From Geminocystis sp. NIES-3708 (GTDB lineage Bacteria; Cyanobacteriota; Cyanobacteriia; Cyanobacteriales; Cyanobacteriaceae): DNA of 64,000 nt. Where the stretch lies: assembly GCF_001548095.1 (NCBI RefSeq), contig NZ_AP014815.1, forward strand, positions 1,673,656-1,737,655, written 5' to 3'. Positions 44,297-63,330 of this stretch are shown piece after piece (within the stretch, counting starts at the first letter, position 1; every line of letters starts with the position of its first letter). Position numbers and translations under genes: made by a program. Under the pieces are notes generated by a model. It was not told the origin of the DNA. It did no database searches and was given only the letters and a program-made list of their open reading frames with translations.

Positions 44297-47200
44297 TCAA
44301 ACAGTAACCCCCTCCAATTCATCCTCCGTCATTTCATAAAGACTTTTGATTTTCTCTAATTTCTCCTCATCCGCATCCCAAAAACCACGCCCATTCGCCT
44401 CCAACATCCTTCCCACAATATTTCGGAAGGCTTCGGGATTCGCTTCCCTTAACTTATTTGCCATGTCTTGATCTAATACATAAGTATCAACAGCTTGATC
44501 ATATACCCAATTATCGGTAAAATCGACAGTACCTCCCCAACCGATTAATGCCGTCATCCGTTGAGAAATTTCATAAGCACCACCTGAACCCTGATCAGCC
44601 ATAGCTTTCGCCCATTTTGGGTTAAGTAACTTAGTGCGATATTCCATCCTTAACACCTGCTCTAATTTACGGGGAGTAGTATCTTTAGAGAAACTTTCCA
44701 CAAAACTAGCCGATACCTTTTTACCGCTTTGTTTTTCGGCGGCACGTTTCAAGCCTCCCGTGTTAGCATAATATTCCTGAATATCCGTCAAGCCATATTC
44801 CACCGAGTCGATTTCCTGCACAACGGTTGCACTGGTTTGTAATAGTTTATCTAAAATTTCAGGGCGCGTTTGCCCTTTATCCTTTCTACCGTAGCTGAAA
44901 ACATTGCGATTTTTCCATGTATCCGCTAATTCATCCCCAGAATCCCAGTTACCATCCACAACCTGATCATTTACTAATGAGCCAAAATCGCCGTTAGGAT
45001 TAGAAAATAGTCGTGCGGAGGCGTTATCAATGCCTTTTTCCTTTAATTCAAGGTAATGTTTCCGAATAAAGTTATTTTCGATCGATTCCTCCGCAGTAGA
45101 AGCCCGTTGAAATAAATCATCCAGCAATTCGATGATATTAATAAAAGTATCTCGGAAAATGCCTGATAAATTACCTAAAACATCAATGCGAGGATGCCCT
45201 ACTTTTTTCAACGGCATTAACTCATATCTAACTATGCGCCCTGTGCCTTCTTTAACAGGCTCTGCACCCACTAATTCTAGTAAAATGCCGATCGACTCCC
45301 CCTTGGTTTTAATAGCATCTAAACCCCATAACATGACGGCTACGGTTTCTGGATAACAACCGTTTTCTGCTAAATTTTGCTCAATAATTTTCTTACCAAT
45401 CTCCCTACCCCTTGAATACGCACCCTGAGAAGGCATCCGATAGGGATCTAATGCGTGAATGTTACGTCCTGTAGGCAATACTCCAGCACCATCTCGCAGT
45501 AAATCACCTCCGGGCGCTGGGGGGATGTATTCACCGTTTAAGCCTCGCAATAAATTAGTTAATTCGTCTTCGGTTTGCATTAACAAGTCAGTAATTAGCT
45601 GTTGTTGCGCAAAACGTTGCTTTAATTCTTCTTCTTTTTCCGCTTTCTTCTCAACTCTGGCGAATAAGTCGCTATTGTTTAACTCTTGGGCGAAGTTTTG
45701 TTGACTATAAGTATCATCGAAATAAGCCTCAAGGTATGATTGCAATTGTTCTTGATTCGGATTTTCCCCTAAGATGTGTAAACCACTGGAAAATAATCTT
45801 TGTTCAACTATTTGCAAATAGTCATATATTTGGACAAAATAATCATTTAATGCCTGTTTACTGAATACCTTGGCATTGTCAGCAGTAAATTCAATACCTC
45901 GTTTTTCCTCTTCGCTAAATTTACAGTCTTTATTTAAGCTACTATCGACTATTTTTTGGACAATATCTTCTTTTAAGAGGGCGTTTTTCTCTGTATCTTC
46001 TCGATACTCGTTAATTAACTCTTTTAATGCCATTAACTCTTTATATAATCCTGCCCTGCCGTAAGGAGGCACATTGTGAGAGATAATAACACCATAACCC
46101 CGTCTTTTTGCCAACATGGATTCGGAAGGGTTGTTAGCGGCATAAATATATAGGTTAGGAATATCTCCTAATAGTACATCTGACCATGAATAGCCCGTAT
46201 TACCTAAAGGATTACCGGGCAACCATTCTACTGTGCCGTGCATTCCGAAGTGTATAATCGCATCGGCTTGAAAGTCATTTTGCAACCATTTATAAAAAGC
46301 TGTGTATTGAGGATGAGGGGTTAAATCTTTCTCAAACATAAGCCTCATGGGATCACCCGCTATACCGAGTGGCGGTTGTACTCCAATCCAGACGTTTCCT
46401 AATTGAATACCGCCGATTTGGAATTTGTCACCAATGGTTTTAATACCAGTTTGAGTCAGATTACCCCATTGTTTCTTGATCTTATTTATTAGTATATATC
46501 CTAACCATCGATCGAGGGTCTTCACATCAACAGTATTAGAGTTAATAGTTAATAGTGACTTGTCAATAGTTAAATCATCTTCTGCCTTCTGCCTTCTGCC
46601 TTCTGCTTTTCCTGAATAGGAGATAAAATCATCAGCGGTTTTGACTTGGTTAAGAATTTCCTCGCCGTCTTCGGGAATATTATCAACGGTATAGCCTTCT
46701 TCCTTCAATGCTGTTAGTAATTTTTGCAAAGATTTAGGTACATTTAATAGTGCGGCCGTACCAGTTGCACCGTATCCGGGGGGGAATCCATATAAAATAA
46801 TGGCAATCTTGCGATCGCACTTCGCCTTTCTTCTTAACTTAATCCAGTTATTAACCCTACCAGTAAGACGCTTAACCCTTTCAGGAATCAGGTATATATC
46901 TTCACCTACTAAACCACCTAATGGGATAGTGTCGATCGCACCATCCAACTCAGGTAAAGCGTATAATACCACACTTTGCAAACCACCGATACCCTTTCTT
47001 ACCCATGAATGAATATCTTGGATTAACAGAGGTGCGGCGACAATGTAGGGAATATTTTTTGCCGTTAAGATACGTTTTGCCACCTCTACCTGTCTTCCAG
47101 CTTCCATACTACCAGCAGGCCCACCCACCAAAGGAAACCCGATGGTAGAGATTACCGCATCTACTTTCACAGCATCTTTTGATAAAGAGGGAGTTTCATT

Positions 47201-48166
47201 AATACCCTGACTGCGTTTTTCTTGCTCATAATCCGTTGTCATCCAATCCCTTACAGCCACATGACCTTCCACACCATTAATGAAAATAGGTAAGGGAATT
47301 AATCCTGCTTCTTCAAAGTAACTAATCAGTTGAGGAATATAAGGTTGTTTGCTGATAACGTGCTTACGATATAACAATATACCAACAACAGGCAGTGAAT
47401 AGTGAATAGTTGATAGTGAATAGTTGATAGTATTTTCTTCTTGTCTTCCTGTCTGCCTGTCTGCCTGTCTGCCTGTCTTACCCTCATCTAATTTCTTTTG
47501 ATACCAACTCAAATACTCACTAGGAGAAGTAAAATAACCATCATAGTCAGGATGAAGTAATCCCATATTAGGAGTTTCGATAACGGGGGGAATTTCGGTG
47601 ACGGTTAAACCGAGATAATTTTCAGCGATAAACCAACACATAGAGGCAACATTCTCAACCCCTCCAGCATTCCAATAACCGTAAATAATCAACCAGTTGC
47701 GTAAATCTTGGACTTTTTTAACGGGAATATATTTTAATAATTTAGGCCCTGTTTTTAAGAAGCTGATATATCCTGCCAGTTTATCTTCTTCTTTGCTATT
47801 GGTAAACTTACTCAAGATGAATTGTACAGGTTTAGGCATTCCTTTAGGCTTATCACCAATAGCGAATTTACCTATCTGGGTAAGACTCATTAATTCTAAA
47901 GCCGACTCGAAAACAAGACGAATGGGAATATGGGCAACTTTTTCCCTTAACCATATTACTTGATCATAGTCGAAAAGCAGACTAGCAAAGAAAACATCAG
48001 CACTTTGTAAGGCCGATTCCACATTTTCTCTTTGAGTATTAATATCCGTATCGGTGAAAACTATTACTTCTAAACCTTCACAGCAAGATATAGCGATCGA
48101 AGCTGATTGACGGTATAAACTACTATTAAAAGTCTCAAATCCTGTTATTAATACGATACGTTTCAT
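44297..48166 (-). CDS. bchH: Magnesium chelatase subunit H-type protein (BchH/ChlH/CobN superfamily)
   Basis: 1289 aa large porphyrin-binding subunit of a metal chelatase: it holds protoporphyrin (or a corrin) while ChlI/ChlD-type AAA subunits drive metal insertion. Recognisable blocks: MKRIVLITGFETFNSSLYRQ at the start, WLIIYGYWNAGGVENVASM, HFGMHGTVEWLPGNPLGNTG, the YVMLWGLD-like segment VAVMLWGLDAIKTKGESIGI and EANGRGFWDADEEKLEKI near the end. The N-terminus differs from canonical cyanobacterial ChlH, so it may be a second H-type paralog; some databases call such proteins CobN. Two in-frame low-complexity insertions (about residues 229-259 and 518-546) derive from short tandem repeats. Confidence 0.85.
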   Translation of the reverse strand: MKRIVLITGFETFNSSLYRQSASIAISCCEGLEVIVFTDTDINTQRENVESALQSADVFFASLLFDYDQVIWLREKVAHIPIRLVFESALELMSLTQIGKFAIGDKPKGMPKPVQFILSKFTNSKEEDKLAGYISFLKTGPKLLKYIPVKKVQDLRNWLIIYGYWNAGGVENVASMCWFIAENYLGLTVTEIPPVIETPNMGLLHPDYDGYFTSPSEYLSWYQKKLDEGKTGRQADRQTGRQEENTINYSLSTIHYSLPVVGILLYRKHVISKQPYIPQLISYFEEAGLIPLPIFINGVEGHVAVRDWMTTDYEQEKRSQGINETPSLSKDAVKVDAVISTIGFPLVGGPAGSMEAGRQVEVAKRILTAKNIPYIVAAPLLIQDIHSWVRKGIGGLQSVVLYALPELDGAIDTIPLGGLVGEDIYLIPERVKRLTGRVNNWIKLRRKAKCDRKIAIILYGFPPGYGATGTAALLNVPKSLQKLLTALKEEGYTVDNIPEDGEEILNQVKTADDFISYSGKAEGRRQKAEDDLTIDKSLLTINSNTVDVKTLDRWLGYILINKIKKQWGNLTQTGIKTIGDKFQIGGIQLGNVWIGVQPPLGIAGDPMRLMFEKDLTPHPQYTAFYKWLQNDFQADAIIHFGMHGTVEWLPGNPLGNTGYSWSDVLLGDIPNLYIYAANNPSESMLAKRRGYGVIISHNVPPYGRAGLYKELMALKELINEYREDTEKNALLKEDIVQKIVDSSLNKDCKFSEEEKRGIEFTADNAKVFSKQALNDYFVQIYDYLQIVEQRLFSSGLHILGENPNQEQLQSYLEAYFDDTYSQQNFAQELNNSDLFARVEKKAEKEEELKQRFAQQQLITDLLMQTEDELTNLLRGLNGEYIPPAPGGDLLRDGAGVLPTGRNIHALDPYRMPSQGAYSRGREIGKKIIEQNLAENGCYPETVAVMLWGLDAIKTKGESIGILLELVGAEPVKEGTGRIVRYELMPLKKVGHPRIDVLGNLSGIFRDTFINIIELLDDLFQRASTAEESIENNFIRKHYLELKEKGIDNASARLFSNPNGDFGSLVNDQVVDGNWDSGDELADTWKNRNVFSYGRKDKGQTRPEILDKLLQTSATVVQEIDSVEYGLTDIQEYYANTGGLKRAAEKQSGKKVSASFVESFSKDTTPRKLEQVLRMEYRTKLLNPKWAKAMADQGSGGAYEISQRMTALIGWGGTVDFTDNWVYDQAVDTYVLDQDMANKLREANPEAFRNIVGRMLEANGRGFWDADEEKLEKIKSLYEMTEDELEGVTV
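46579..46606. repeat. Heptamer tandem repeat inside bchH-type gene
   Basis: Four perfect units of CTTCTGC (GCAGAAG on the coding strand), a heptamer known from cyanobacterial short tandem repeats. It encodes an in-frame EGRRQKAE stretch; flanking bases also look like intergenic filler (TTAATAGTTAATAGTGA). Confidence 0.9.
47448..47479. repeat. Octamer tandem repeat inside bchH-type gene
   Basis: CCTGTCTG three times followed by CCTGTCTT, encoding a Gly/Arg/Gln/Asp-rich stretch (TGRQADRQTGRQ). Next to it two 14-base units (AGTGAATAGTTGAT) stand in tandem at 47401-47428. The frame is preserved throughout. Confidence 0.9.
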
Positions 48167-63192: not shown

Positions 63193-63288
63193 TCGGTTTT
63201 TGACCTCCGTTAAACTTAAAGAATCTTAATATTAGCATGAAAAAAGCCAATGAGCAATAAAAAAAGGCAAACCTCAGTTCGAGATAGG

Positions 63289-63330
63289 AAAAATCAGGAA
63301 GACAAAATAGAAAAAATCAGGAAGACAAAA
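63289..63330. repeat. Short tandem direct repeat in intergenic DNA
   Basis: The 19-base unit AAAAATCAGGAAGACAAAA occurs twice with a 4-base spacer (63289-63307 and 63312-63330). Otherwise the gap 63193-63462 holds nothing I recognise. Confidence 0.8.

Follow-up and report, generated by a model that had tools for sequence, protein, structure and literature searches.

Short repeats in frame within three variable linkers of a BchH-type chelatase paralogue of cyanobacteria

The small repeats of cyanobacteria are commonly regarded as non-coding filler. STRR heptamers and small dispersed repeats are known from the non-coding DNA of these bacteria and also from RNA genes such as rnpB. Rickettsia palindromic elements (RPEs) are in-frame insertions of small palindromic repeats in protein genes. 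According to passages of one study, which also mentions RPEs, intragenic REPs, that is palindromes tagged with GTAG or CGTC, are read in frame inside proteins, sometimes twice per ORF, GTAG families occur in cyanobacteria, and in two Xanthomonas species recB has acquired different REPs at roughly one position; no chelatase is mentioned in these passages (PMC3733652). According to a second study, TAACTGA heptamer direct repeats are common to Beggiatoaceae and cyanobacteria, and in the main genome described there most of them are located directly upstream of putative start codons, which led to the proposal of a regulatory role (PMC4679880). In-frame repeats in bacterial proteins, such as RPEs and intragenic REPs, are already known. 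The titles and opening lines of abstracts listed in our literature search contain no account of repeats in a cyanobacterial chelatase. Here, we describe a chelatase gene of Geminocystis sp. NIES-3708 and its orthologues, in which repeats of several kinds lie in frame.

Two composite repeat insertions in one chelatase gene

The window, by which we mean the whole stretch of 64,000 nucleotides that was analysed, contains the following features:

44297-48166, minus strand: gene for a BchH-type (magnesium chelatase H-like) paralogue, an intact ORF of 1289 codons that houses the linkers S1, S2 and S3
47396-47494, minus strand: linker S1, codons 225-257, hypervariable in orthologues and containing the insertion reported initially
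47442-47478, minus strand: octamer array in S1, sense unit GACAGGMA, four exact consecutive units and degenerate ones
47399-47431, minus strand: 14-mer array in S1, two ACTAT-type 7-mers per unit, sense ACTATCA/ACTATTC
46538-46624, minus strand: linker S2, codons 515-543, with a second composite insertion in the same gene
46579-46606, minus strand: array of four GCAGAAG units in sense (four CTTCTGC on the forward strand), found by Tandem Repeats Finder with 100% match
46540-46573, minus strand: imperfect array of ACTATTA-type 7-mers in sense (AGTTAAT on the forward strand), period 7, 4.9 copies, 74% match
45608-45715, minus strand: linker S3, codons 818-853, repeat-bearing in other cyanobacteria

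The initial annotation assigned the gene to the H-type chelatase family, an assignment that is borne out by Pfam and TIGR02025 and can be narrowed to a BchH-type paralogue. The protein has near full-length CobN-Mg_chel (PF02514, 1089 bits, residues 163-1269) and DUF3479 (PF11965, 159 bits, residues 3-159) domains, and it scores 1530.2 bits with the BchH model TIGR02025, for which the cut-off is 829, whereas the other two Mg-chelatase H models remain under their cut-offs (967 of 1300 and 817 of 1166). Its best match in the PDB is the solved ChlH structure 4zhj. An AlphaFold2 model of residues 1-870 is weak (pLDDT 63.7, with 297 of the 870 residues below 50); S1 and S2 are low-confidence coil in this model, as are many other stretches. 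Two further homologues are encoded in the same genome. C1:1159269-1163072, which is 41% and 35% identical to the window protein over two segments, is likely ChlH and was, with its relatives, treated as ChlH proper, and C1:3615076-3617868, which is more distant from the window protein, is probably CobN. The idea that the window gene is itself the ChlH gene of this genome was rejected, as the likely ChlH is found at another locus and ChlH of 20 genomes is fixed in length at the linkers. We regard the window enzyme as a putative BchH-type chelatase paralogue, which might insert Mg with the help of the I and D subunits. Of 60 genomes, counting the window's own, 40 gave a BchH-type match that, by our reading, clearly exceeds the ChlH level. 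As the remaining 20, three of which are less than 80% complete, gave no match beyond the ChlH level, the paralogue seems to be dispensable at the level of the clade.

Octamer and 14-mer tandem arrays in frame within this gene had been reported initially, and Tandem Repeats Finder recovers both (octamer array: period 8, 4.6 copies, 96% match; 14-mer array: period 14, 2.4 copies, 100% match) inside ORF 44297-48166, which stays open through both arrays, with no stop or frameshift, as had also been claimed. A chance origin of the repeats was rejected, since probes of 22 nt for the octamer and of 28 nt for the 14-mer, each with up to three mismatches allowed, both have an expectation of 0.00 when the window is shuffled 100 times with its dinucleotides preserved. 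Together, the two arrays are translated as KTGRQADRQTGRQEENTINYSLSTIHYSL. The description of the insertion as rich in Gly, Arg and Gln holds for the octamer half (KTGRQADRQTGRQEE) only, the 14-mer half encoding NTINYSLSTIHYSL. The composite in S2 (46540-46606), which was missing from the initial annotation, lies approximately 0.8 kb from the S1 arrays and encodes GKAEGRRQKAEDDLTIDKSLLTINS. In sense orientation, its GCAGAAG units precede the ACTAT-type 7-mers, and in each occupied loop of the window gene an ACTAT-type 7-mer array comes after a purine-rich one, GACAGGMA in S1 and GCAGAAG in S2. S3 of the window gene shows none of the 14 repeat motifs introduced below.

Other tandem repeats are present in the window. 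An ORF on the minus strand (2-856), which leaves the window, carries a period-9 array (150-196) encoding an Asp/Glu run, EDMEDEDDEDDEDDEDDEDE, an in-frame tandem repeat of a different kind from the octamer/7-mer type. A 23-mer is found twice at 63284-63330 (95% match), with no ORF of at least 60 aa around it.

Linker variation and reading frame across orthologues

We collected 114 loci and analysed 100 rows, the window protein included. Dropped from the 114 were L001-L005 (the copy of the window itself and four segments of paralogues), six duplicates of identical sequence and the partial sequences L095, L111, L113 and L114. L092 was kept among the 100 although a frame break, located outside the linkers, truncates it. 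The three linkers are hypervariable in length across these rows: the distance between the conserved codons 224 and 258 (S1) has a median of 13.5 aa, a range of 2-65 and a standard deviation of 13.9 aa, that between codons 514 and 544 (S2) ranges from 0 to 45 (sd 8.6 aa) and that between codons 817 and 854 (S3) from 6 to 55 (sd 13.0 aa). Two minor length-variable spots directly precede S1 (sd 2.2 and 1.9). The S1 segment is not shared by orthologues with normal conservation. The initial view of S1 as an insertion stands in so far as the arrays are in frame; the site is not occupied in this gene alone, as orthologues often hold other repeats there.

The repeats in the linker DNA of orthologues include GTAG palindromes, GGCGGGCAAGATGCCCACCCCACA, CCCACCCC, CCCCCC..GGGGGG elements, CGCAGAG, ACAGATG and arrays of 7- and 8-mers. 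Using 14 repeat motifs picked post hoc, we found at least one in a linker of 68 of the 100 rows (46 in S1, 36 in S2 and 24 in S3). The density of these motifs is 8.28 per kb in the linkers versus 0.077 per kb in the remaining 352 kb of gene sequence, an enrichment that is descriptive because the motifs were chosen from the linkers themselves. Flanking DNA (718 kb) contains 0.102 hits per kb per strand, barely more than the gene outside its linkers, and lacks seven of the 14 families altogether, the octamer included. In a motif-free test of 12-mer recurrence against approximately 740 kb of flanking DNA, the share of linker 12-mers that recur in the flanks is significantly raised for S1 (0.255 vs 0.169, p=0.0018) and not for S2 (p=0.81) or S3 (p=0.40). 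The reading frame is maintained in nearly all orthologues examined; the clear exceptions are L111, L092 and G029, whose broken frames may be assembly errors. The same loops have been entered repeatedly by short repeats, usually without breaking the enzyme.

How the frame constrains such repeats can be seen from the GTAGAGACG..CGTCTCTAC palindrome, which is present in both S1 and S2 of L044, L054, L057, L061, L084 and L107. Its G occupies codon position 2 in S1 and position 1 in S2, and the two frames give peptides such as CRDVACNVST-like and VETLHATSL-like ones. That one palindrome is read as two unrelated peptides speaks against selection on the peptide. The linker does not strictly fix the codon position: in L013 and L014, S1 contains a related GTAGGGGCG form that stands at position 1. 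Codon position 3 for the palindrome G would yield TAG, and in L111 (a metagenome-assembled draft, ~5970) it is precisely this TAG of the palindrome that interrupts the frame at S2. As the TAG adjoins a homopolymer run, an assembly error is possible; if it is not one, the break is the outcome that a frame filter predicts for the forbidden frame. Among the tandem units, GACAGGMA and GCAGAAG contain no stop in any frame of either strand. ACTATTC and ACTATCA are stop-free in the sense direction alone, and this is the direction in which they are read here. At 33% GC, the proportion of random 7- and 8-mers that are stop-free on a given strand is 0.517 and 0.470, respectively.

It was also seen that L084 and L057 carry an identical 28-nt palindrome at codons ~234 and ~505, approximately 812 nt apart and in different frames. 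This pair could possibly have arisen by copying within the gene.

ChlH served as a homologue for comparison and was taken from 20 related genomes, 16 of which also gave a BchH-type row. At the positions aligned with S1, S2 and S3, ChlH has 28, 34 and 66 aa with a standard deviation of 0 in 20/20, versus standard deviations of 17.2, 12.5 and 10.8 at the same positions in 23 BchH-type rows picked from the 100. ChlH is left alone in largely the same genomes in which the BchH-type paralogue is colonised. A second protein with repeats in a linker is encoded elsewhere:

L126:582-3020, minus strand (G000:C1:2879893-2882328 in this genome): radical-SAM fusion protein (TIGR03960 and TIGR03936) with repeats in its interdomain linker

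In this genome, the interdomain linker contains GCAGAAG units and ACTAT 7-mers in frame. Radical-SAM matches were obtained in 19 of 20 genomes, and 17 of them were aligned besides the window's own, G022 being dropped as it is split over contigs. The linker has a mean length of 17.8 aa (sd 13.0 aa); several of the aligned proteins have other repeat-like inserts in it (for example L193-L196, L200 and L204), and it is short and free of repeats in L197, L198 and L206. Every pairwise alignment of the S1, S2 and radical-SAM composites beats all 500 shuffles, with scores that are overstated because the shuffles preserve dinucleotides only and tandem structure raises scores. As the radical-SAM linker behaves similarly, the phenomenon is not peculiar to the chelatase.

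Insert combinations among close relatives and genomic copies of the repeats

The window gene and its six close relatives (four congeners, and L007 and L008 of the same family), which have pairwise DNA identities of 0.85-0.91, carry unrelated inserts at the same codons. In S1, the octamer array is found in the window gene and L012, a CCCCCCCAACCCCCCTTAATAAGG element with an identical left junction in L007, L009 and L010, and other sequence in L006 and L008. In S2, the window gene, L006 and L009 have the GCAGAAG composite, L010 and L012 an APKSPKLG element, and L007 and L008 others; the sequence that replaces the composite in L007, L008, L010 and L012 is repeat-like too. The initial annotation suggested that the repeat number could vary between strains, and between species it does vary: the octamer array has four exact units in the window gene and ten in the congener L012, a difference of 48 nt that keeps the frame, and the sequence following the array differs between the two.

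All four pairings of S1 and S2 inserts exist, namely octamer with GCAGAAG (window gene), octamer with APKSPKLG (L012), PPQPPLIRGE with GCAGAAG (L009) and PPQPPLIRGE with APKSPKLG (L010). A tree of codons 1-110 leaves L012 beside the window gene and places L006 and L010 among the outgroups (support 1.00); the tree of the whole gene conflicts with this and pairs L012 with L006 (0.97). Given the four pairings and the discordant segment trees, there must have been recombinational exchange or repeated insertion. A scan of identity along the gene gave no clean recombination breakpoints and no consistent rise in identity around the linkers for pairs that share an insert. At the N-terminus, codons 1-75 of L006 and L010 are only ~0.75 identical to the window gene and far more diverged than most of the gene, which suggests a mosaic ancestry.

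The 22-nt octamer array is found at two places in this genome, both coding, namely in S1 of the BchH-type gene and in L116/L137, an ORF that exceeds 1000 aa. In the congener G004, it is found at 44 places (95 hits), 39 of them outside and five within ORFs of at least 100 aa, and the other 12 genomes searched have 0-2 hits each. The statement that such repeats are normally intergenic filler thus describes the congener well and fails in this genome, where both octamer places are in large ORFs. At L247 and L248, two of the five G004 sites within ORFs, the orientation is antisense and the array stands close to where a frame of 185-227 aa begins. These two ORFs are probably spurious, and without them three of the 44 places lie in ORFs.

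Some of the other octamer-bearing ORFs can be described further. L250 and L252 of G004 are large ORFs with in-frame octamers, which in L250 follow a PPSIPPINGG-type element. In L116 (G000:C1:1075105), the in-frame octamer array encodes VETGRRGDGETRRQEDRQTGRVGEEK; a 996-aa piece of this ORF gave no Pfam or NCBIfam match, and its product may resemble TamB.

Arrays of three GCAGAAG units are found, among 14 genomes, only in the BchH-type S2 of this genome (G000), G002 and G003. Exact 14-nt GCAGAAG pairs are present at two places in this genome, S2 and the radical-SAM linker, both coding; with one mismatch allowed, there are two more places, outside ORFs of at least 100 aa. As the octamer arrays and the exact GCAGAAG pairs are coding-only here, their intergenic source is not seen in this genome. 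Three-unit ACTAT-type arrays are found at 13 places in this genome (22 pattern hits vs 9 for the reversed control). Of these places, eight fall outside ORFs of at least 100 aa, three coincide with the start of an open frame and two lie well within ORFs. Each of the seven genomes whose linkers bear GGCGGGCAAGATGCCCACCCCACA or a relative has 13-50 copies of GGCGGGCAAGATGCCCACCCCACA, versus 0-4 in eight others, and the reversed-pattern control gave none in 15/15 genomes. The exact 28-nt GTAGAGACGTTGCATGC palindrome is present at 0-5 places in each of 11 genomes, often counting two in the BchH-type gene, and these counts do therefore not show a wide dispersal of the exact GTAGAGACGTTGCATGCAACGTCTCTAC palindrome. 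Y1_Tnp (PF01797), a model that also takes in IS200/IS605 transposases, is present in 15 of 16 genomes and is therefore not discriminating.

Origin of the inserts and comparison with known repeat systems

We consider it probable that permissive loops of the enzyme have been colonised by non-coding repeats, which were tolerated after passing a filter on reading frame and then changed by slippage and recombination. The three loops of the BchH-type paralogue would tolerate extra residues, and non-coding repeats (7- and 8-mer arrays, GTAG-type palindromes and small dispersed elements), moving from intergenic into genic DNA, would land at random or, as another presumed means of arrival, by recombination. 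The survivors would be those with a length of 3n and a stop-free strand and frame that lie inside a loop, the remainder being purged by selection on the protein; surviving inserts would be neutral, and the protein would presumably be made with its insert. As units of 7 or 8 nt are not multiples of three, an array without a stop in any frame can be read in any phase, and such arrays would therefore pass the filter easily. Later, arrays would gain or lose units with a net change of 3n.

The repeats might instead have arisen by slippage in situ on short unique sequence under weak selection, their likeness to intergenic repeats reflecting nothing but stop-free units. This is possible above all for GCAGAAG, whose exact pairs are confined to two coding linkers in this genome, and it agrees with the four and ten exact octamer units at one site in two congeners and with a filter that is easy to pass, given that roughly every second random 7- or 8-mer lacks stops on a given strand at 33% GC. 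As an account of the inserts as a whole we find it unlikely, since the S1 octamer is dispersed at 44 places in G004, since the three linkers, in two genes, have the same composite order with each pair above 500/500 shuffles, and since numerous other linkers contain palindromes or longer repeats that are not in tandem, neither being a product of simple slippage. Old inserts could also have been shuffled as cassettes by homologous gene exchange among relatives, a process compatible with frame-filtered colonisation and indicated by the existence of all four S1 and S2 pairings and by the disagreement between trees of gene segments. We doubt that it is the main route of arrival, as identity around the linkers is not consistently higher for pairs that share an insert and as shuffling cannot account for the first arrival of the inserts or for the variety of repeat families across orders. 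It is also conceivable, but quite unlikely, that the loops act as a refuge and exchange site, in which families lost from intergenic DNA persist in frame because deletions inside proteins must keep the frame, and from which recombination moves them between species. If so, the exact GCAGAAG pairs and the long octamer arrays would be such families here and could spread again.

An adaptive linker, whose insert would influence how the protein folds, binds partners or is regulated and whose length would be tuned as in a contingency locus, seems very improbable to us. Tandem units can alter length fast and S1 and S2 are located within a multidomain enzyme, but a change by a single unit of 8 or 7 nt breaks the frame, which is nevertheless kept in nearly all orthologues, and a single DNA element yields unrelated peptides from two frames. 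Because of this two-frame reading and the unrelated sequences in close relatives, the peptide itself is not conserved. That the gene is a decaying pseudogene or an assembly artefact is barely credible. The 20 of 60 genomes that lack a match beyond the ChlH level (three of them under 80% complete) and the broken frames of L092, L111 and G029, themselves maybe assembly errors, would fit such a reading; the window gene, however, has an intact frame of 1289 codons and a full-length identity of 91-93% to relatives in five other assemblies (G001, G002, G003, G008 and G011), and its S2 array is shared with G002 and G003. A pseudogene was rejected, as the gene is intact and conserved.

If non-coding repeats have indeed colonised these loops, one enzyme family offers many natural trials, with three loops, many inserts, two frames and a control protein of fixed length, and thereby a direct route to how protein sequence originates in non-coding DNA and how the frame filter works. 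The loops may also archive which repeats passed through each lineage, including ones that have since been lost from the genome. A further caution is that TGRQADRQTGRQ, VETLHATSL and similar peptides of cyanobacterial proteins can be translated repeats and not motifs.

Compared with the closest described systems, the window gene shares with intragenic REPs and RPEs an in-frame repeat in an intact ORF that is missing from orthologues, the octamer being common to L012 alone among the close relatives. The REPs and RPEs are families of palindromes, whereas the window inserts are composites of tandem 8-mers and 7-mers, the latter arranged as 14-mers in S1; GTAG palindromes were found in the linkers of other species only. 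STRR arrays resemble the GCAGAAG and ACTAT-type arrays in being tandem 7-mers, a likeness at the level of unit length, and differ from them in that the arrays here are in an open protein frame. The TAACTGA repeats are likewise heptamer direct repeats, but lie, in the main genome of that study, mostly just upstream of putative starts, unlike the in-frame arrays described here (PMC4679880). As in the intragenic REPs described in PMC3733652, small repeats are read in frame within proteins here too; the differences are that three loops of one enzyme family are occupied in many cyanobacteria by many unrelated repeat families, that arrays of 7- and 8-mers are among them, and that a related protein is fixed in length. 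What the present case adds is that insertion recurs in many cyanobacteria at three loops of one family, that tandem 7- and 8-mers form a class of their own among the inserts, and that a homologue stays fixed.
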